This document shows positions 1 to 33,015 of a stretch of DNA of 33,015 bases, piece by piece. Numbering within the stretch: position 1 is the stretch's first letter; each line of letters begins with the position of its first letter. The notes beneath the pieces are model-generated. The model was not told where the DNA came from, made no database searches, and saw only the letters and a program-made list of their open reading frames with translations. The DNA is taken from positions 1-33,015 of the IMG/VR virus record IMGVR_UViG_3300047562_003538; one strand, written 5' to 3'. The DNA is from a virus. Both the position numbers and the translations under genes were made by a program.

Positions 1-977
1 GTATTATCCCAACCCATGACAGTATCAGCTGAAAGAGATCCGCCATTCTTGAGTTGAATGTCATCAGCATTAACTGTGATGCCAATACCAGCACCAACTG
101 CTAAGTCAACAGTTTGACCTTCTCCAGCAGAAGAAGTCTTAGCAAGACCAGCACCTGCAGTTACATCAGCAACATAGTTGCCAGTTGTATCTGTGCCGAG
201 AGCAACAGAGTTGGCAGCAATGGTAGCAGTGAGAGTTGCGTTAGCAAGATCGGTAACAGTTACATTACCAGTTAAATCACCACCAAGAGTAATTGTGAAA
301 TCAGCAACGTTAAAATCTAGTTTACCGTTGGTGTCGTCGTAGGTTACAGAAATACCAGATTCGCTGTTGGAGCTAACCATAGCACCAACAGTGTCTTGGA
401 CATACTCATCATTAATAGTTACAGCACCAGAGGTAACTGTGAAATTAGTAGAGTCGAAAGAAGCAACACCCTTATTTGATGTGGTTGCATCTTCAGCAGA
501 AATTGTAATCTGATTATCTGATACTGCAGTATCAATACCTTCTCCACCAGTAAAGGTTAGAGTTTCTCCAGTATTGAAATTATCACTAGTGCCAGTATCT
601 GCGGCAAGGGTGAATGATGACGCAGCAGGAGCTTGGAATGATAAATTGCCACTACCATCGCTAACGAGTACGTTACCAGCACTACCAACTGTTGATGGTA
701 GTTTTAGAGTAATATTAGTTGCTACATCAGGAGCGGCAAGACTTACGCTACCACCACCACTTCCATCAGTGCGTGAGTATAACTTAAGTGCATGGCCAGT
801 CGTTGCTGTTTCTTTTACCCAATAACGAGCCGATCCTAAAAATTTGTTGTTGCCAGATGTGCCATCAAGACCAAGATATAAATTGTATTCATCATTTACA
901 AACGCGGGCTCACCTGCGGCGAGGCCAGGCAAATTTGCTTGCGAGCCTCTTTTAAACTTAATCGTTGGTGCCGCCAT
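1..977 (-). CDS. Tail-fibre-like structural protein, 5' part (runs off left edge)
   Basis: The reading frame is open from ATG 977 to the window edge, giving at least 325 residues, so the C-terminus is missing. The N-terminus carries the IKFKRGS..LPGLAAGEPAF pattern followed by NLYLGLDG. This short head is common on cyanophage fibre and adhesion proteins, where it probably docks the fibre to the virion. The rest is low-complexity, rich in Gly, Ser, Thr and Asp, with repeated units of the type GDLTGNVTVTDLANATLT and DDIQLKNGGSLSAD, as expected of a long trimeric beta-structured shaft. It has no Cys. AGGA lies eight bases before the ATG, and a late-promoter box AATAAATA is at 1011-1018, so it has its own late transcript. 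The exact receptor role is inference. Confidence 0.75.
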   Translation of the reverse strand, partial: MAAPTIKFKRGSQANLPGLAAGEPAFVNDEYNLYLGLDGTSGNNKFLGSARYWVKETATTGHALKLYSRTDGSGGGSVSLAAPDVATNITLKLPSTVGSAGNVLVSDGSGNLSFQAPAASSFTLAADTGTSDNFNTGETLTFTGGEGIDTAVSDNQITISAEDATTSNKGVASFDSTNFTVTSGAVTINDEYVQDTVGAMVSSNSESGISVTYDDTNGKLDFNVADFTITLGGDLTGNVTVTDLANATLTATIAANSVALGTDTTGNYVADVTAGAGLAKTSSAGEGQTVDLAVGAGIGITVNADDIQLKNGGSLSADTVMGWDN

Positions 978-1010
978 GTGTTTATCCTACGAGATACGAT
1001 TTTCTTTTAC

Positions 1011-1018
1011 TATTTATT
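1011..1018 (-). promoter_or_regulatory. Late promoter box for left-edge fibre gene
   Basis: The minus strand reads AATAAATA, matching the T4-type late consensus NATAAATA, in the gap between the 115-aa gene and the fibre gene. The predicted start near 1005 leaves a 28-base leader with an AGGA Shine-Dalgarno. No -35 element is expected for this promoter class. Confidence 0.65.
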
Positions 1019-1020
1019 AT

Positions 1021-1368
1021 TTAGAAAGACCCAGCATCAACATCAACTAGGTTATCCAAGTCAACATCGAGTTGGTCGATGAAGTCTTGTGGTAATCCAG
1101 GTTGGACAGTTTGGGTAGTATCTGCAGCTGCAGAGAGCACCGCATCAGGATTTACAAATTTATATTTTTGTGCTACTGCGTCATATACCATTACATAATT
1201 ATTTGTAGTAGTGCCAGTTTTATCTAACGCAGATGTATCTACGTTACCCAAATCTTCTAGTGATTCTGCCACGATGTATGAAGTTGATACTTGAGTATTT
1301 GTTGCCGATTCCAATGTCACATTAGTTTCATTATTATATGACATTGTTACTTGATATTCTTCTGCCAT
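1021..1368 (-). CDS. Small virion structural protein, 115 aa
   Basis: This small acidic protein starts at ATG 1368, whose A is the last base of the upstream TAA stop (TAATG), so translation is probably coupled. Residues about 55-80 contain NYVMVYDAVAQKYKF, a pattern seen in cyanophage fibre-associated proteins. The C-terminus ends in the GLPQDFIDQLDVDLDNLVD..AGSF type of tail, which I recall from cyanophage structural proteins. It sits between the 110-aa Ig-like protein and the large fibre gene, in a late-expressed cassette. No catalytic motif, signal peptide or membrane segment is visible. A role as fibre connector or cap is inference only. Confidence 0.7.
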   Translation of the reverse strand: MAEEYQVTMSYNNETNVTLESATNTQVSTSYIVAESLEDLGNVDTSALDKTGTTTNNYVMVYDAVAQKYKFVNPDAVLSAAADTTQTVQPGLPQDFIDQLDVDLDNLVDVDAGSF

Positions 1369-1700
1369 TAACTAATACCTGGAGTAACGGTAACTTGTCC
1401 TTCTACCACACGAGTTTTTACTCCGCCTGGTGAAGTAATAAGAATGTCATAACTATATCTTCCTGGTTTCAAGATACTGGTTGCAAAACTACTCATAGAT
1501 AGTTTTAATTTGCCATCAGGTCTGCTCAAAAAAGAAACACCAAAATTTGTTGATGATGAAGAAGTGTAGTGTTTTTTAATCTTAGCTTCGGCAGTATAAC
1601 CAGTCAAATCTAAAGCAACATTGTTAGATCCAGTGACCGTGAATGTCGCTTCAAAATCTGCTCGTTGCTCAACAACCAAATTGATAGGAATAGCCGCCAT
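1368..1700 (-). CDS. Small beta-sandwich structural protein, 110 aa
   Basis: A frame extends three codons further to a TTG at 1709, but ATG 1700 is the better start: it gives MAAIPINL, and the predicted late transcript begins near 1720 with GAAGGG as the likely ribosome site. The sequence alternates hydrophobic and polar residues (DLTGYTAEAKIKK, then ILKPGRYSYDILITSPGG, then VVEGQVTV), resembling the N-terminal domain found in several phage baseplate or adhesin upper proteins (BppU-like). A beta-sandwich with a virion attachment role is likely; the family name is a guess. It follows a combined terminator and promoter and overlaps the next gene by one base. Confidence 0.7.
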   Translation of the reverse strand: MAAIPINLVVEQRADFEATFTVTGSNNVALDLTGYTAEAKIKKHYTSSSSTNFGVSFLSRPDGKLKLSMSSFATSILKPGRYSYDILITSPGGVKTRVVEGQVTVTPGIS

Positions 1701-1707
1701 TAGACAC

Positions 1708-1740
1708 AAAAAAACCCTTCTTATGTATTTATAAGAAGGG
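1708..1740 (-). terminator. Intrinsic terminator after the 69-aa gene
   Basis: The minus strand has a perfect 10-bp stem (arms 1740-1731 and 1724-1715) with a 6-base loop, followed directly by seven T. It begins eight bases after the stop of the 69-aa gene, so it closes the transcript that carries that gene. The stem and loop also contain a late-promoter box. Confidence 0.85.
1726..1733 (-). promoter_or_regulatory. Late promoter TATAAATA inside the terminator hairpin
   Basis: The exact T4 late consensus TATAAATA lies across the loop and the first arm of the hairpin. With T4 spacing, transcription would start at about 1720, inside the second arm. The new RNA would carry only half of the stem and could not form the terminator. 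It would serve the 110-aa gene, the 115-aa gene and beyond. Confidence 0.7.
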
Positions 1741-1747
1741 TATTAAA

Positions 1748-1957
1748 TCATTCTTCAGTTGTTTCTTCTGAAGGCAATTCTCCTAGGTCACCAGGAGAAG
1801 ATTCTTGTTGCTCTAGCAATTCTAGAGTTTCAAGACCACCAATCAATTTTAGTTTATATTCTTTTGCTTTTGCCAACTCTCCTTGGATTTGCTCAATTTT
1901 TTCATCAATTTCTTTGAGTTGGTTTTGGAAGTTTACTTTCAAGTCAGTTGTTGCCAT
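1748..1957 (-). CDS. Coiled-coil protein, 69 aa
   Basis: Residues about 8-50 form a clear heptad-patterned coiled coil (NQLKEIDEKIEQIQGELAKA followed by YKLKLIGGLETLELLEQQ), and the tail is acidic, ending in GELPSEETTEE. It has no Cys, signal peptide or membrane segment. It has its own late promoter at 1983-1990 and is followed immediately by a strong terminator, so it is mostly a one-gene late transcript. Its place between two fibre genes suggests a fibre assembly factor or small trimeric connector. This is inference; I do not recognise the family. Confidence 0.7.
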   Translation of the reverse strand: MATTDLKVNFQNQLKEIDEKIEQIQGELAKAKEYKLKLIGGLETLELLEQQESSPGDLGELPSEETTEE

Positions 1958-1982
1958 GTATAATCAAAATAAAGACACGGTA

Positions 1983-1990
1983 TATTTATT
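1983..1990 (-). promoter_or_regulatory. Late promoter box for the 69-aa gene
   Basis: The minus strand reads AATAAATA in the 45-base gap after the 1648-aa gene. The predicted start near 1977-1978 gives a leader of about 20 bases before ATG 1957. Confidence 0.65.
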
Positions 1991-2002
1991 ATAGCACAGA
2001 TG

Positions 2003-5000
2003 TCAACTTGCGACGTAATTCTTTTGAATAATCAATCTGTTGAGGTAATCATTGTTATCAAAAGCAGGAGTGTATTTTAATATCACATTTCCAGCACTAA
2101 TTTCAGCTGTGAATGATCCTAGAGATTTTACGGTATATATTGTGCTGTATTCATTTACATATGTATTTGTGCCATCATGAACTACCATTATTTTTGTTGA
2201 ATGGACCCATGATGGATTGACAGTATTTTTTGCTTGAATGAGATATTCAGCAGTATCAAATCTTGATGTTGGGAATGTATCTAAAGTAATGGTGGAAGAT
2301 GTAGTAGAATCAACAACTTCTAAGTTATCTCCAATTTTAACAATCTTTAGAATGCCGAAGTTAGCAGTGTCTAGTCCAGATTGATAGTATAAGAATTGTG
2401 GAGCATCTTGAGGGACAACAAATTTAACTAAATCGCCAACATTACTACTGCCATTTCCAATAACACCATCGGTATAGAGATTAGCACCAATAGCACCTGG
2501 AGAAGTTACAATATTAAATGGATGTCCAGTGACATCTCCTAAACGGAAGACATATTCCTTACCTGCAACTAGTTGTAAATCTGGAATAGTGCCATATGAT
2601 TTGCCAACATTCTCATCAAAAATCACATATCTGTTTGCTTGAAGAGAAACTTGGAATGTTGGCACACCCGCAACACCAACACCAATTGCAATTTCAGATG
2701 GATTTGCTGATAAAGTGCCATTATTACCAAGTAAAGTCTTTGGTGCAATGTTTTGAAGTTTTCCTAAAGTAACAGATTTGTCACGAATATCAACTACATT
2801 TTGAGTATCGATAGTAAATCTATCATATAAGAAACTAGCAACACCACGAGTACTAGACCCGCTTGCTTGACCAGTTGTATAAGAAACAGCATTAACATCT
2901 AACTCAACAAATCCACTTTCATTCAATTCACCAGATGTTACTAGACCCCCAGAAAGATAACTTCCTGGAGCACCTGCTCTAGCATAAGTAAATTCTGTGC
3001 CACTAGTTACAGTTACTTGATATAGACCATTATAAGTGTCTGGGATTACTTGCTCAATTTCTACATAATCGCCAGTAGTTAATAAGTGAGCTGTAGCAGT
3101 AGTTACTGTGGCAATATTAGACGCCCAAGCAATTGCAGAAATATTTACTGGAGTGCCAGTTTTCTTGAGAGTTTCTGCTGTGCCTGCAACAGTAATAGCA
3201 GAATTTGTTGGTGGTAAAATACCCTTAACAACTGGTGTAAATTTGTTGAGACCGTTTAGATAAGTATCATCATTCGCAACACCAGTGCCCAATCTGGATG
3301 GTGAAATAAGACCAGAAACAATAGCAGCAGCATCTAACTGGTTGAGAGCAATCAACTCCCAATTATTTGCATCAGTTGCAGGAAGACCTGTTAGAATCCA
3401 AGTTTGGAGAAGAGTTAATGGGTCTCCATCTGCTTCATTCTTTTGGATAACAATATCACCAGCCTTCAGTGCATCGCCCAAGAAAGCAAGAGAATCACCA
3501 ACAGTTAAATCGGGACTGGTTGGTAATGTTTGGTCAACTGTAATAGTATTAGTTGCAACATCAATACCACCAATTGCAATTCTGGTATTGTTGGGAATAT
3601 TTGTGCCAGTTACAACTAGACCATCAACCAAATCTGTAACACTATTAAGAGTGATTGTATTAGCAGTATTGCTTACAATTGTCTTAGTTGCTACAGGAAT
3701 ATATGCTTGTAATCTTTCTGCTTCTGTTTCTACAGTATATACAACAAAAGTTGATGTCTGTGGAATCTGTGAAGAATCAATCTTGCCAGTAGCATCCAAT
3801 TGGACAATAAGACCAGGAATACTAGATGTGCCTTTGTTTAGACCAATAAAGTTTCCTAAAACTGAAGTTTTGTTGATGTAATCTCTAACCGCTTTTTGTG
3901 TTGGTAATACAGTATCAGACCTGCCAACAGGACCACCAAGATTATTATCTGGCGAAAATTCAAAGATTGGGACGCCAGGAGACCCTTTAAGTTGTAAAGA
4001 ATCTAGGACGCCAAGAGCAACAGACCCATTAAATGTAACCTTACCACTTCTAAGGTTAACATTGAAGAAAGGACCAACACTGAAGTTACCACTCTGGTCG
4101 GTAGCACTGACATATGTCTTACCAGACTTAACTTCTACATTCTGTTTTGCTGCATCAGTAATACCACCATTTTGTGGGAATGCGGTGTAGTTGATGCCAG
4201 TGCCAACATATTCAAATGTGTGTGAAGAGCTGTTGACAGTAGAGGGAGCAAATAACTGAGCAGATGCGTTATTTGAAATTGCTGAAATTTCTGAGTTTGA
4301 TAGTGGGAAATTTGTGGTAAATTCTGTGAAGTTTCCTGGGTCATATGAAAGTACTTCACCGACAACATGCTCATTACCAGTTGGGTCTAAACCAAGACCT
4401 GGAATTTTTAGAATATAATTTGGAATAGGTGGAGCTTGATAACCAGTTACATTAATCTTGGTATATACAGAACCTGAGGCAATCTCAATTTCACCTGTAG
4501 TGCCGCCACCAACAAAATTGACAGCATCATAAGCAACATTTTCAATAATAGTAATGATATTGTTTTGGAAATCTACAGTATCAATTACCTTTCCTGTGCC
4601 ATTGATATCTGGTGTTGAGACATGGTTTGAAATAGTAATAGTTTGACCTCTTTCAAACTTACCAATATCAACAATAGAAACTTCGATAGTTGCTCTAGTT
4701 GCTGTGCCACCTGCTTCCGATGAAAATGTAGTGCCAACAATATTACTTGGAGCAGTGTTAATATCTGTCTTGGTAATATTTTGAATACTAGAAACTTGAC
4801 CTCCAGCAAAAATAGGTAATACGTTATCCGAAAAACCTACTGCCTTGAGACCCTCAAAACCAAAGTTTGTAGCGGAGTTGGTAATAGATGCATAACCACC
4901 AGATTCTGCAAGGACACCAACGGATTCAAAAACTTGGAAAACAGAAACTAACTGTGCATATGCATCATTCTTTAGGTGGAAACCAATTGACCCAAATACG

Positions 5001-6949
5001 ATTTGAGTGAATGCATCCACAACCATAGACTCAAGAGGGCTATTGCCATCGAGCTGAGCACCATCAGCAAACAGACCACCTGCTCTTGTCTTAGACGCAT
5101 CATATTCTCCTAAGTTAGAATCATAAACTGCTCTACCTAACTTGGAGATACATGAGCAGTTTTGTGTATATGGTGATAAGAAAATTCTTTCTTTTGGTGG
5201 GATTACATAGAAAATATCAAGAGTTGCTGCTTGACCAACGGGAATATTGCTAGCAAGAGTTAACTGTTGGTCACTATCAATAGATTGAATAGTGTAACTG
5301 TTTCCATTTACTTTGATAGTCCAACCTACTTGGAATTCTTCAGTAAATATAGTATTAACATTACCTAATACAACAGGACTGTTATCATTTAACGTTACAC
5401 GTCCTTTTCCACGGAAACCACTTTGCTCTGGATATGCCACAGCATATCTCCAAGTAAATGCACTCTGAGAAACAAAGGCACCAGTAATATGTTTTGATGC
5501 TACAGTTGCTTCGCCTGTAATTGGGTCATTAACACCTCTGTTAACAATGAAGGTGTTTGTGGATGTATTGAAATCAATTACCTCCATCCATTCTTGATCA
5601 ATTAAAATAAAACCAGGACCAATATTATATTGAGGTATATCACCACCTTGAATAATAGAGGTAACAATATTTTCTAAAGTGCTAATATATGCTTGTGCTC
5701 TAGCACATGCTGGATAACCAGCAGTATCTTGAATAATTGGTGAATATGTCCATCCTGGATCATTTGACCAATTGATTAAAATTTCTTGCTGTGCATGATA
5801 TGACAATCTTTCGATTGCATAAATTAATTCAATTTCTTCTCCTTGAATTGCTGCAATTAATTCGCCATTAGCATCGTTGTATGCTAATCCGTTTTGAATA
5901 GACTTGACGTTGCCACCACTTCTCAAGTCAGCAACAAAACCATCGACAATATAACCTAAATCTCTCTCGCAAGTTACTTGGTCGTAATCTGGATTATTAA
6001 CTAACGCTGGGAATTGCGCTAGCATATCTGCAATCGCACTAGCAATTAGATTAGTTTTTCTGAATTCAATTGTATTTCCACTGTCTGGAAATACACCATC
6101 AATTTTTTGTAGAGTGTGCCCTGGTAATACTCTAAAAGTTTGGTCAACTGCAGTTAATGTGCGATTATCAGTTGGTTCCGTTTCGAGATAACCCAAACCA
6201 CCGTTAAAGTTATCTTCAAACACCATGTAGTTGATGTAACAACCAGATGTTACCCAGAAGATATCTCTACCTTCATTTTCTGGAATAACAATAGTTTCTC
6301 TTAAGTTGTCACCAACAATCGAAGTGCCTTTTGGTAAATAGATTGGGTTATCTTCATAATACTTACCAGTAGCTACACGGATAGTAGTATTACCATCAGT
6401 TGCCGCCGCTGCTTTTGCTGCTGCTTTGATTGTGCGGAATGCTTTTGATGGACTTGCACCAGTGTTAGCATCATCACCATTTGGTTTTACATATAAAACG
6501 TTTTGGTAATCTGCTTCACCAAGAGGAGTTGGAGTGCCCCAACCTTGTGCAGTCTTAGGACCATATAATTCTTTCTTTGCACTATCAAAGTAGTAATCGT
6601 TTAGTTTACCTAATGTGCTGAGTGGTGCTACAACACCAGAAAGAATTTGCTCAGAAAAAGAAATGGTGCTAGCTGGCCAAGCACCATTTTCTTTAGGTCC
6701 ATATAAATCATTGGTTGTAGTATCTAACCAGAAGTCACCATTAGCACCATCTCCTGCCGTAGGAGCACCAGCACCATTTAAAAACTCACCACCGTCTGCA
6801 GACCCAGCAGTAATCTGGTTGATTGCCGCGACAATACTTGGCAATCCACTGGAGAGTTGAGTAATATCACCTACATCAGTTGCTAGAGAATTAATCTCCT
6901 GACGCTGTTGGTCAAAGGTATAACTTTTGGGAACGTTTCTTAGTGCCAT
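2003..6949 (-). CDS. Giant fibre-like structural protein, 1648 aa
   Basis: This is a multi-domain virion protein. Residues about 1-50 have a short helical head. Residues 55-150 hold two copies of a FWLDTTTNDLYGPK-like unit (the second is YYFDSAKKELYGPK). From about 150 there is a pectin-lyase-like segment starting LYVKPNGDDANTG followed by AFRTIKAAAKAAA, typical of parallel beta-helix spikes. Near 1018 lies LPTQKAVRDYI, a motif common in tail fibres. Residues about 1440-1530 look cupredoxin-like (YVFRLGDVTGHPFNIV) but lack the Cys/His/Met end loop. The last 70 residues (KIMVVHDGTNTYV and on) match a C-terminal module I recall from many cyanophage fibres. It starts as TAATG with the 70-aa gene. 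It is probably a host-contacting fibre or baseplate spike; the enzyme-like fold need not be active. Confidence 0.75.
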   Translation of the reverse strand: MALRNVPKSYTFDQQRQEINSLATDVGDITQLSSGLPSIVAAINQITAGSADGGEFLNGAGAPTAGDGANGDFWLDTTTNDLYGPKENGAWPASTISFSEQILSGVVAPLSTLGKLNDYYFDSAKKELYGPKTAQGWGTPTPLGEADYQNVLYVKPNGDDANTGASPSKAFRTIKAAAKAAAATDGNTTIRVATGKYYEDNPIYLPKGTSIVGDNLRETIVIPENEGRDIFWVTSGCYINYMVFEDNFNGGLGYLETEPTDNRTLTAVDQTFRVLPGHTLQKIDGVFPDSGNTIEFRKTNLIASAIADMLAQFPALVNNPDYDQVTCERDLGYIVDGFVADLRSGGNVKSIQNGLAYNDANGELIAAIQGEEIELIYAIERLSYHAQQEILINWSNDPGWTYSPIIQDTAGYPACARAQAYISTLENIVTSIIQGGDIPQYNIGPGFILIDQEWMEVIDFNTSTNTFIVNRGVNDPITGEATVASKHITGAFVSQSAFTWRYAVAYPEQSGFRGKGRVTLNDNSPVVLGNVNTIFTEEFQVGWTIKVNGNSYTIQSIDSDQQLTLASNIPVGQAATLDIFYVIPPKERIFLSPYTQNCSCISKLGRAVYDSNLGEYDASKTRAGGLFADGAQLDGNSPLESMVVDAFTQIVFGSIGFHLKNDAYAQLVSVFQVFESVGVLAESGGYASITNSATNFGFEGLKAVGFSDNVLPIFAGGQVSSIQNITKTDINTAPSNIVGTTFSSEAGGTATRATIEVSIVDIGKFERGQTITISNHVSTPDINGTGKVIDTVDFQNNIITIIENVAYDAVNFVGGGTTGEIEIASGSVYTKINVTGYQAPPIPNYILKIPGLGLDPTGNEHVVGEVLSYDPGNFTEFTTNFPLSNSEISAISNNASAQLFAPSTVNSSSHTFEYVGTGINYTAFPQNGGITDAAKQNVEVKSGKTYVSATDQSGNFSVGPFFNVNLRSGKVTFNGSVALGVLDSLQLKGSPGVPIFEFSPDNNLGGPVGRSDTVLPTQKAVRDYINKTSVLGNFIGLNKGTSSIPGLIVQLDATGKIDSSQIPQTSTFVVYTVETEAERLQAYIPVATKTIVSNTANTITLNSVTDLVDGLVVTGTNIPNNTRIAIGGIDVATNTITVDQTLPTSPDLTVGDSLAFLGDALKAGDIVIQKNEADGDPLTLLQTWILTGLPATDANNWELIALNQLDAAAIVSGLISPSRLGTGVANDDTYLNGLNKFTPVVKGILPPTNSAITVAGTAETLKKTGTPVNISAIAWASNIATVTTATAHLLTTGDYVEIEQVIPDTYNGLYQVTVTSGTEFTYARAGAPGSYLSGGLVTSGELNESGFVELDVNAVSYTTGQASGSSTRGVASFLYDRFTIDTQNVVDIRDKSVTLGKLQNIAPKTLLGNNGTLSANPSEIAIGVGVAGVPTFQVSLQANRYVIFDENVGKSYGTIPDLQLVAGKEYVFRLGDVTGHPFNIVTSPGAIGANLYTDGVIGNGSSNVGDLVKFVVPQDAPQFLYYQSGLDTANFGILKIVKIGDNLEVVDSTTSSTITLDTFPTSRFDTAEYLIQAKNTVNPSWVHSTKIMVVHDGTNTYVNEYSTIYTVKSLGSFTAEISAGNVILKYTPAFDNNDYLNRLIIQKNYVAS

Positions 6950-17622: not shown

Positions 17623-17636
17623 TATTTATATTTATA
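17623..17636 (-). promoter_or_regulatory. Two overlapping late promoter boxes before gp8
   Basis: The minus strand holds TATAAATATAAATA, which is two exact TATAAATA boxes offset by six bases. Predicted starts are near 17623 and 17617, giving leaders of about 33-39 bases before ATG 17584. It is intergenic, between the gp7-like stop and gp8. Confidence 0.75.
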
Positions 17637-31907: not shown

Positions 31908-32234
31908 ATGAAAAATTTTGCAAGTCTTCTCGCATTACCTGCAATGCTACCCCTCGTGCTGGTAGGCAATGCCCATGCATGTCTTCGGAGTGTCATCTGT
32001 GCTTCTGGACAAACCAACTATTTTGAGATGGCACAGCGTCAGCAAAAACAAGCAGAGTTGGCACAGTATTATCCACAACCCCAACCCCAATACCATGGAC
32101 CCTCCTTCTTCCAGGGTAGCAGCGGTCCTGTGGTAGTGCCTCCCACTGTTATTAATCCTCCAGGTCCCAGGGAGTGTAGGAAGCGCCGTGTGAGTTTCTT
32201 GCTAGTCTTTGAAAGGGAGACGGCAGACTGCTGA
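31908..32234 (+). CDS. Exported small protein with signal peptide, 108 aa
   Basis: It is the only convincing plus-strand gene. The first 24 residues are a textbook signal peptide: MKNF, a hydrophobic core (ASLLALPAMLPLVLVG), and a cleavage site at NAHA followed by CLRS. The mature part has a Gln/Pro/Tyr-rich stretch (KQAELAQYYPQPQPQYH), then VVVPPTVINPPGP, and ends basic with a Cys. Two Cys near the mature N-terminus could form a disulphide or a lipid-linked Cys, though the lipobox is not typical. The ATG has no good Shine-Dalgarno. The 3' end overlaps the facing 87-aa gene by 33 bases. An envelope-directed early or accessory function is likely; the exact role is unknown. Confidence 0.65.
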   Translation: MKNFASLLALPAMLPLVLVGNAHACLRSVICASGQTNYFEMAQRQQKQAELAQYYPQPQPQYHGPSFFQGSSGPVVVPPTVINPPGPRECRKRRVSFLLVFERETADC

Positions 32235-32465
32235 TACACCCCACTCAATAATATTCCAAACTAAAAGAATGATGCCGATGCACAACCAGGCGATAGCCTC
32301 AACTGCAGCGGTGTCATTCTTTTTTCGTCTGGAAGTCTTTGGGCGACTCCTCATAGTCTCTTTGATGACTCTCTTGCTAGAGCGATACTGCTTCTCTTGG
32401 AAGTCTCGGACGGTATTGTATTTGCCCCTCTCGGTGGCTCTTCTGAGGTGTTGACCTTTTTTCAT
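32202..32465 (-). CDS. Single-helix membrane protein, 87 aa
   Basis: The N-terminal half is strongly basic (KKGQHLRRATERGKY, then RSSKRVIKETMRSRPKTSRR), followed by a hydrophobic helix at about 53-80 (AVEAIAWLCIGIILLVWNII) and a short C-terminal tail. The positive-inside rule puts the basic part in the cytoplasm. The ATG overlaps the stop of a 39-codon ORF (ATGA), suggesting coupling. Its 3' end overlaps the facing exported-protein gene by 33 bases. A small phage membrane protein (for example holin-like or envelope modifier) is possible, but nothing specific is recognised. Confidence 0.55.
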   Translation of the reverse strand: MKKGQHLRRATERGKYNTVRDFQEKQYRSSKRVIKETMRSRPKTSRRKKNDTAAVEAIAWLCIGIILLVWNIIEWGVSAVCRLPFKD

Positions 32466-32581
32466 GGTTTTACGAAGCTAACTAACTCTCTCAGGGTTAT
32501 CCAAATATATGATACCTGCTCCCTCAGAGTCGTGCGAGTTTCTGGGCGAAATTTTTTTGGGAAAAATTTTTTTATTTTCAT
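32462..32581 (-). CDS. Possible basic 39-aa peptide coupled to the membrane protein
   Basis: ATG 32581 opens a short frame ending with TGA at 32462, which overlaps the next ATG (ATGA). The peptide begins MKIKKFFPKKFRPETRTT and then repeats LREQVSYIWI and LRELVSFVKP. It is basic and amphipathic. GAGAG lies about 13 bases upstream, a poor Shine-Dalgarno distance. The overlap and the internal repeat support a real small gene. It could also be a leader that controls the membrane protein, or chance. Confidence 0.35.
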   Translation of the reverse strand: MKIKKFFPKKFRPETRTTLREQVSYIWITLRELVSFVKP

Positions 32582-32662
32582 GAATATATATCGCTCTCTT
32601 TCAAAGTTTTGTAGGTTAATAGTATCTATCAATTTTGGTTTCGCTCGGCCACCCGCTAGTAC

Positions 32663-32691
32663 AAAAAAACCCCTAGGCGACTGCCTAGGGG
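32663..32691 (-). terminator. Intrinsic terminator after the 88-aa gene
   Basis: A perfect 9-bp GC-rich stem (arms CCCCTAGGC and GCCTAGGGG) with loop GACT is followed on the minus strand by seven T. It lies 24 bases after the stop of the 88-aa gene and separates the foreign-looking edge gene from the rest. Confidence 0.9.
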
Positions 32692-32714
32692 GCATGGTAG
32701 GATGGGCGACTGCC

Positions 32715-32981
32715 TCAGAAGTTGCAGGCGAGGCGCTCACTGCCCCACATGCCAGCGGCACGGTCACGCGCTGCTGCCCTTCGATCTTTTTTATATTGTG
32801 CCTTGGCACGGGCAGCGTTGGCGTCCTTGTCTCCAATCCACTGCCTGCCCAGTCCGACCACAGGGGTGATGGTGAATGCACGTCCGCTGCCTGCGCTGCC
32901 ATTCACTGGGCATGTGCCCTTCACTGAATCAGCACCGCTGCCGAGGTTGCCGATGGTCTGGTGTGCGTTGGGGCGAATCAT
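32715..32981 (-). CDS. GC-rich accessory protein, 88 aa (start uncertain)
   Basis: The DNA is about 60% G+C by eye, against about 37-40% for the structural genes, and the codons follow that. The product has TIGNLGSGADSVKGTCPVNG, then AFTITPVVGLGRQWIGD, then an Ala/Arg/Lys-rich helix (AARAKAQYKKDRRAAARDRA), ending in Cys. The two Cys may pair. No signal peptide is visible from ATG 32981. The same frame is open to the window edge, so the gene may begin further right. A TACAAT box lies 22 bases before the ATG and a terminator follows. It looks like a host-derived or recently transferred gene; the family is not recognised. Confidence 0.55.
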   Translation of the reverse strand: MIRPNAHQTIGNLGSGADSVKGTCPVNGSAGSGRAFTITPVVGLGRQWIGDKDANAARAKAQYKKDRRAAARDRAAGMWGSERLACNF

Positions 32982-33003
32982 GGTCGTCTGTGTGTGTGGT
33001 TGT

Positions 33004-33009
33004 ATTGTA
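33004..33009 (-). promoter_or_regulatory. Possible -10 box before the 88-aa gene
   Basis: TACAAT on the minus strand would give a start near 32997, about 16 bases before ATG 32981. The -35 would be outside the window. The surrounding 16 bases closely match the -10 region at 31874-31889 (TGCTAYRATACAACCA). Confidence 0.45.
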
Positions 33010-33015
33010 GCACCC

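Follow-up and report, generated by a model that had tools for sequence, protein, structure and literature searches.

A T4-type late promoter predicted to restart transcription from inside an intrinsic terminator in marine T4-like phages

We analyzed a 33,015-nt stretch of viral DNA (IMG/VR record IMGVR_UViG_3300047562_003538, positions 1 to 33,015; hereafter the window) and identified a 34-base element between two late genes in which a T4-type late promoter motif lies within a terminator-like hairpin. We consider it likely that this element, at 1708–1741 on the minus strand, is an intrinsic terminator with a built-in late promoter whose restarted RNA escapes termination. According to the proposed mechanism, a polymerase arriving from the upstream gene would copy the full hairpin and halt at the T run, terminator strength in the host being assumed. 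A late polymerase with a gp55-type sigma factor would recognise NATAAATA, eight bases within the arm and loop, and start at G1720. The restarted RNA, having no 5' arm, would form no hairpin and would continue into the tail fibre assembly gene. A single 34-base element could close one transcription unit and open the next in this way. T4-type late promoters consist of a -10 element alone, as in the gp55/gp33/gp45-dependent transcription of T4, and because they need only this short box, a promoter can fit in a hairpin loop.

Anatomy of the element in the window

Proteins encoded in the window match those of T4-like marine phages (Kyanoviridae), and the late tail and baseplate genes are on the minus strand. 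The features of the region are listed below.

1708–1741, minus strand: candidate fused intrinsic terminator and T4-type late promoter (from the sequence, a terminator scan, shuffles and retention in relatives)
1731–1741, minus strand: hairpin 5' arm ACCCTTCTTAT, predicted to be missing from RNA begun at +1
1714–1724, minus strand: hairpin 3' arm ATAAGAAGGGT, containing the predicted start site
1708–1714, minus strand: terminator T tract of 7 T, with the predicted 3' ends of upstream transcripts
1726–1733, minus strand: late promoter motif TATAAATA, at -13 to -6, lying in arm and loop
1720, minus strand: predicted +1 (G) of the late transcript, placed by the T4 spacing rule (PMC1524935), with a 20-nt leader to the ATG
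1368–1700, minus strand: downstream gene, 110 aa, homologue of an L-shaped tail fibre assembly protein (phrog_1084/phrog_3304)
1748–1957, minus strand: upstream gene for a 69-aa coiled-coil-like protein (phrog_580), with its stop codon 6 nt before the hairpin
1983–1990, minus strand: AATAAATA, predicted late promoter of the upstream 69-aa gene

The 47-base intergenic region (1747–1701) reads TAA-TACCCTTCTTATAAATACATAAGAAGGGTTTTTTTGTGTCTA-ATG, with the stop codon on its 5' side and the start codon on its 3' side. On the minus strand, 1741–1714 is ACCCTTCTTAT-AAATAC-ATAAGAAGGGT, in which 1741–1731 forms 11 perfect pairs with 1724–1714 around a 6-nt loop. The T run at 1714–1708 is followed by GTGTCTA and then by the ATG at 1700. 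A terminator scan placed the strongest terminator-like site within positions 1–6000 at this hairpin, which has the makeup of an intrinsic terminator (11 bp, 4 GC pairs, 7 T, about -15 kcal/mol). The promoter motif is of the NATAAATA type and lies 5' of late structural genes on the same strand. T4 late promoters have the motif at -13 to -6 relative to +1 (PMC1524935), and this spacing puts the predicted start inside the hairpin, such that late RNA would lack the 5' strand, as it does at T4 gene e. The initial annotation had proposed an exact motif in the hairpin with the +1 in the second arm, and the motif at 1733–1726 and the predicted G1720 bear this out. The element it described as 33 bases at 1708–1740 is real, and its extent is corrected here to the minus strand and to 1708–1741, one base longer.

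We compared the predicted folds of the two transcripts. Readthrough RNA from the window, taken through the T run, folds at about -15 kcal/mol, whereas RNA from +1 has a predicted energy of 0. Across 12 representative elements (the window, L004, L006, L007, L010, L215, S-PM2, L533, L536, L545, L580 and Melnitz; a thirteenth entry, L584, was excluded because it had been aligned to the wrong motif), the readthrough RNAs ranged from -14 to -19 kcal/mol, compared with 0 to -3 for RNAs from +1. The distance from +1, set by the T4 rule, to the ATG was 16–25 nt in these elements and mostly 19–23 nt.

The window contains seven ATAAATA motifs, all on the minus strand, which carries the late genes; a strong stem spans only one of them, the 1708–1741 site. 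The motif is not in excess (7 observed against 11.5 expected); the late-promoter signal in the window is a matter of strand and position, not of motif number. When the motif was held fixed and the flanks were shuffled with dinucleotides kept, an equal stem with a T tail arose in 16 of 100,000 shuffles, a chance of ~1e-3 once seven motif sites are allowed for. We regard conservation with compensatory changes, described below, as stronger evidence than these shuffle statistics. Minimum free energy folding around every late promoter gave mostly weak, uninformative structures, and Rfam and tRNA scans of the window returned no matches. Elsewhere in the window, tandem overlapping late promoters (TATAAATATAAATA, 17623–17636) precede a gp8-like gene, and the segment at 32001–33015, where low-confidence ORFs overlap on both strands, has a G+C content of ~0.51, against ~0.37 in the rest of the window.

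Conservation at the tail fibre assembly gene and at gp13

ATAAATA occurs shortly 5' of the start codon in most of 80 contigs that encode the downstream protein, most of them without a terminator at that position. Because NATAAATA precedes the gene with or without the hairpin, the promoter appears to be selected in its own right, and its retention is not owed to the hairpin. A terminator around the promoter was confined to the window's close relatives, being present in the ten closest (L002–L011) and in L527. The arms in these relatives differ as pairs (CCCTTCTTAT/ATAAGAAGGG, CCCTTCGTAT/ATACGAAGGG and CCCCTCGTAT/ATGCGAGGGG) and change together, from CTT/AAG to CGT/ACG to CCTCG/CGAGG, with the motif and the T tract constant. 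Another hairpin, CACACTTTCCTT-ATAAATA...AAAGGAGA..TGTGTG-AATG, holds the late promoter in its loop in twelve contigs (L014, L015, L025, L028, L032, L034–L036, L041, L045, L046 and L079) and in methylophage Melnitz-1 (L203). It buries the Shine-Dalgarno sequence AAGGAG, which is the design of T4 gene e. These comparisons suggest that one lineage uses a terminator, and others a translational lock, to keep the tail fibre assembly gene from being expressed by readthrough.

A whole-contig search of relatives identified a second copy of the element, AAAACCCTTCTTATAAATACATAAGAAGGGTTTTTTT, 5' of the neck gene gp13 in contig 3300028569_000020, and S-PM2 has its own version, AAATCCCTATCTGATAAATACAGGTAGGGATTTTTA, 5' of gp13, with the motif at 66798 of AJ630128. 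Eighty gp13 contigs contained a large family of such elements with loops that are often exactly ATAAATA or CTAAATA. Four examples are given here.

gp13 element: TCCCTGCTTC-CTAAATA-GAAGTAGGGA-TTTTTT
gp13 element: TCCCTACCTG-ATAAATA-CAGGTAGGGA
gp13 element: TCCCTACATG-CTAAATA-CATGTAGGGA
gp13 element: GTCCTCTG-CTAAATA..AGAGGAC

The initial annotation had called for a scan of other T4-like cyanophages, and that scan was positive: nine of the ten named phages read first, a set selected for a gp13 resembling that of S-PM2 and not fully independent, carry the element at gp13 (S-PM2, Syn1, S-RIM32, S-RIM44, S-H9-2, Sf-FP1, Sf-CH11, Sf-FR1 and S-RSM4). S-CAM1, the tenth, has no element at gp13, and neither do Syn9, P-HM1, Melnitz, HTVC008M and T4. 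Melnitz carries an element 5' of a baseplate-region gene next to gp5 and 3' of a tRNA gene. Searching the named phages at the DNA level with the window element itself returned nothing related.

We counted covariation on the gp13 set alone; a joint alignment with the tail fibre elements gave differing stem registers. In 15 distinct gp13 elements, 98.2% of stem cells were paired. Double-change cells numbered 18, compared with 6.3 in shuffles, and none of 500 shuffles reached as high a count. The covariation score was 0.355 versus 0.136, and registers slid out of alignment paired at 53% or less. Arm swaps included a G-C to C-G exchange next to the loop and a U-A to C-G to A-U series. The slid control and the arm swaps weigh more because shuffles ignore relatedness. 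By these comparisons, both halves of the element, the predicted stop signal and the predicted start signal, are kept intact by evolution across dozens of relatives.

The CTAAATA loops match a late promoter form reported for Aeh1 (PMC1524935). Over whole genomes, CTAAATA was strongly biased toward the late strand in Syn9 (DQ149023; 23:2), P-HM1 (25:1), Melnitz-1 (17:1), HTVC008M (15:1) and S-PM2 (17:4), and it had no strand bias in T4 (13:18). This distribution suggests that CTAAATA is a second late promoter form in marine T4-like phages.

At gp13, the element is preceded by a gene homologous to the one for the 69-aa protein in the window (shared AKEYKLKLxGGLETLxLL). We found the element directly 3' of a phrog_580-type gene in 46 of 80 contigs that encode this small protein; the next gene is gp13 in 36 of these and the tail fibre assembly gene in nine, and one lies at a contig edge. 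Four more of the 80 (the "prom only" class) carry the element with one stem mismatch. In most of the remaining phrog_580 loci at gp13 the promoter straddles the stop codon, a GAAGGG leader is kept, and the T run and a strong 5' arm are missing. The arrangement resembles a moron-like cassette in that a small 69-aa gene has its own predicted promoter (AATAAATA) and is followed by the terminator element, and in that it occupies different sites with different neighbours (gp13 and the tail fibre assembly gene), with the element present both times. We infer that the element is often carried along as the 3' end of the small phrog_580 gene. Two sister sequences at gp13, G006 with ATAAATACATAAGAAGGGTCTCTG and no 5' arm and G003 with the full element, are likely a gain/loss pair. 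The terminator may arise where a late transcription unit already exists and gains a 5' arm able to pair with the first bases of its RNA. We also considered whether presence of the terminator follows that of a metabolic gene, tryptophan halogenase, inserted 5' of gp13; this is not supported, as L574 has a halogenase-like ending upstream and no terminator.

Second geometry, strand controls and prevalence

About ten further gp13 loci have the motif over the 5' arm, in the arrangement TATAAATACCyCTAGGAAACTAGrGGTATTTTTTT-ATG. The predicted +1 in this second geometry (class II) falls 10 nt into the hairpin, again removing most of the 5' strand. Its covariation, which 32 of 500 shuffles reached, is suggestive only.

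We used reverse-complement motifs as a strand control. Among 348 distinct terminators at T4-like loci, 51 sense motifs, of which a few are second motifs or chance, put the +1 inside the hairpin, versus 4 reverse-complement motifs at the same positions. The fraction 51/348 is not a genome-wide rate because the loci were picked for these genes. Strict cases amounted to one of 147 terminators in five whole named phages and none of 41 in T4; the element is rare within a genome. A virosphere-wide scan (ATAAATA, 4–14 nt, GGGTTTTT) gave no sense excess, with hairpins at 16 of 120 sense sites, 31 of 118 reverse-complement sites and 11 of 119 scrambled sites. In view of the larger reverse-complement count we do not claim that the design is general across the viral collection, and we limit the claim to some T4-like marine phages.

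Other hairpins near promoters were noted in the same material. Upstream of the portal gene gp20 of two distant phages, Syn9 (~113915) and Melnitz-1 (~122450), a hairpin without a T tract encloses a late promoter (TTACCCTGATAAATAGATCAGGGTAA; TTTTACCCGACTAAATAGAAGGGTAAAA). A conserved terminator, GCCCTGTTATATTTATATTAAATGTAGCAGGGTTTTT, lies a few nucleotides 5' of the ATG of a MAESKIQEQDTYxGxYPTVFKKID gene in L218, L220, L286, L288, L303 and L314; this site may be a terminator that holds a promoter of a further type, in another group of phages. Terminators also end shortly 5' of the ATG of the terminase large subunit in L121, where the loop contains ATAAATA, and in L255, which has TATTTATTAATA.

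Alternative readings and relation to known hairpins

The hairpin could instead act mainly as a translational block, with GAAGGG as a ribosome site that is locked in the helix of readthrough RNA and freed in RNA from the inner promoter, the T run being incidental. This logic is established for T4 gene e and I-TevI (PMC3014915, PMC2988022), our hairpin scan recovers T4 gene e and I-TevII, and other lineages have the gene e-type hairpin at the same downstream gene. A GAAGGG-like leader also outlives the strong 5' arm and T tail in some gp13 relatives. A translational lock needs no T tract, yet class I elements consistently keep theirs. The ATG lies outside the helix, the paired GAAGGG is weak and 14 nt away from it, and most genes in the window have no Shine-Dalgarno sequence. 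Pairing with CCCTTC demands GAAGGG anyway. We judge a primarily translational role unlikely, and the ribosome-site function that the initial annotation gave to GAAGGG is weakly supported: the leader retained in gp13 relatives speaks for it, and the spacing and the scarcity of Shine-Dalgarno sequences among genes of the window speak against it.

Scarce intergenic space offers a different account, in which economy forces the two signals to overlap and a start inside the hairpin brings no gain. The two genes are indeed only 47 bases apart, and elsewhere in these phages a terminator and a promoter just stand side by side (28 cases with a +1 at most 60 nt downstream). Because such adjacent arrangements exist, overlap is not forced; moreover, random overlap could place the +1 before or after the hairpin, but two independent geometries place it inside with most of the 5' strand removed. 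Economy alone is thus quite improbable. More improbable still is that an ordinary terminator has an AT-rich loop that happens to spell TATAAATA without promoter activity. Viral terminators often have AT-rich loops, and loops like ATAAATA or its reverse complement occur in unrelated viruses, but NATAAATA precedes the tail fibre gene in relatives without the hairpin, the strand control came out strongly in favour of the sense motif, and the motif stays fixed as the arms change. The terminator with a built-in restart, as the initial annotation first proposed it, is well supported by the conserved promoter, the covarying arms, the conserved T tail, the two geometries and the positive scan; termination, initiation at 1720 and escape of the restarted RNA are still predictions, with the +1 taken from the T4 rule.

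We compared the element to known phage hairpins. At the T4 genes e, soc, 49, I-TevI and segB and at Aeh1 mobE, a late promoter lies inside an inhibitory hairpin (PMC3014915, PMC2988022). The window element resembles the gene e group in having the TATAAATA late promoter in a hairpin and in the predicted escape of late RNA, which would start inside and lack the 5' strand, with readthrough RNA blocked. In the gene e group, however, the helix conceals the ribosome site and so prevents translation, whereas the window helix should end transcription because a T tract follows it and because it ends well before the start codon. It shares with the intrinsic terminators of T4-like phages a GC-rich stem followed by a U tract between genes. 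T4 terminators are described as having a 4-nt loop (PMC2988022), unlike the window element, whose loop and inner arm carry a promoter motif, an arrangement absent from all 41 T4 terminators that we found. In sequence, strand bias and position shortly 5' of late genes, the motif is like late promoters of the T4/S-PM2 type (NATAAATA; CTAAATA in Aeh1), which, unlike that of the window, are not described as lying within a terminator (PMC2984593, PMC1524935). The mobE terminator is followed by a separate nrdB promoter (PMC2988022). There, as proposed for the window, the terminator comes with an inserted gene, and a promoter belonging to the next gene starts transcription again, but the two signals are separate at mobE/nrdB and fused in the window. 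In the full text of the open-licence papers that we searched, no late promoter is described as lying within the hairpin of a terminator. Escape by loss of half a hairpin has precedents in T4 genes e, soc and I-TevI; its use on a terminator appears to be new with respect to these papers.

There is perhaps an even chance that these start-inside terminators form a regulatory element class of marine T4-like phages that insulates and restarts late transcription, occurs mainly as the 3' end of phrog_580 genes and evolved more than once by addition of a 5' arm. With phrog_580 as the carrier, the cassette could therefore sit between different late genes without silencing those downstream. The 34-base element may serve as an insulator-plus-promoter part, and pipelines that call terminators and promoters separately would misread such sites. 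If the restart model is correct, the element would be a transcriptional twin of the T4 trick in which a late promoter in a hairpin frees late RNA from a lock, and it would explain how marine phages that are abundant split their compact late operons into units that can be set one by one.
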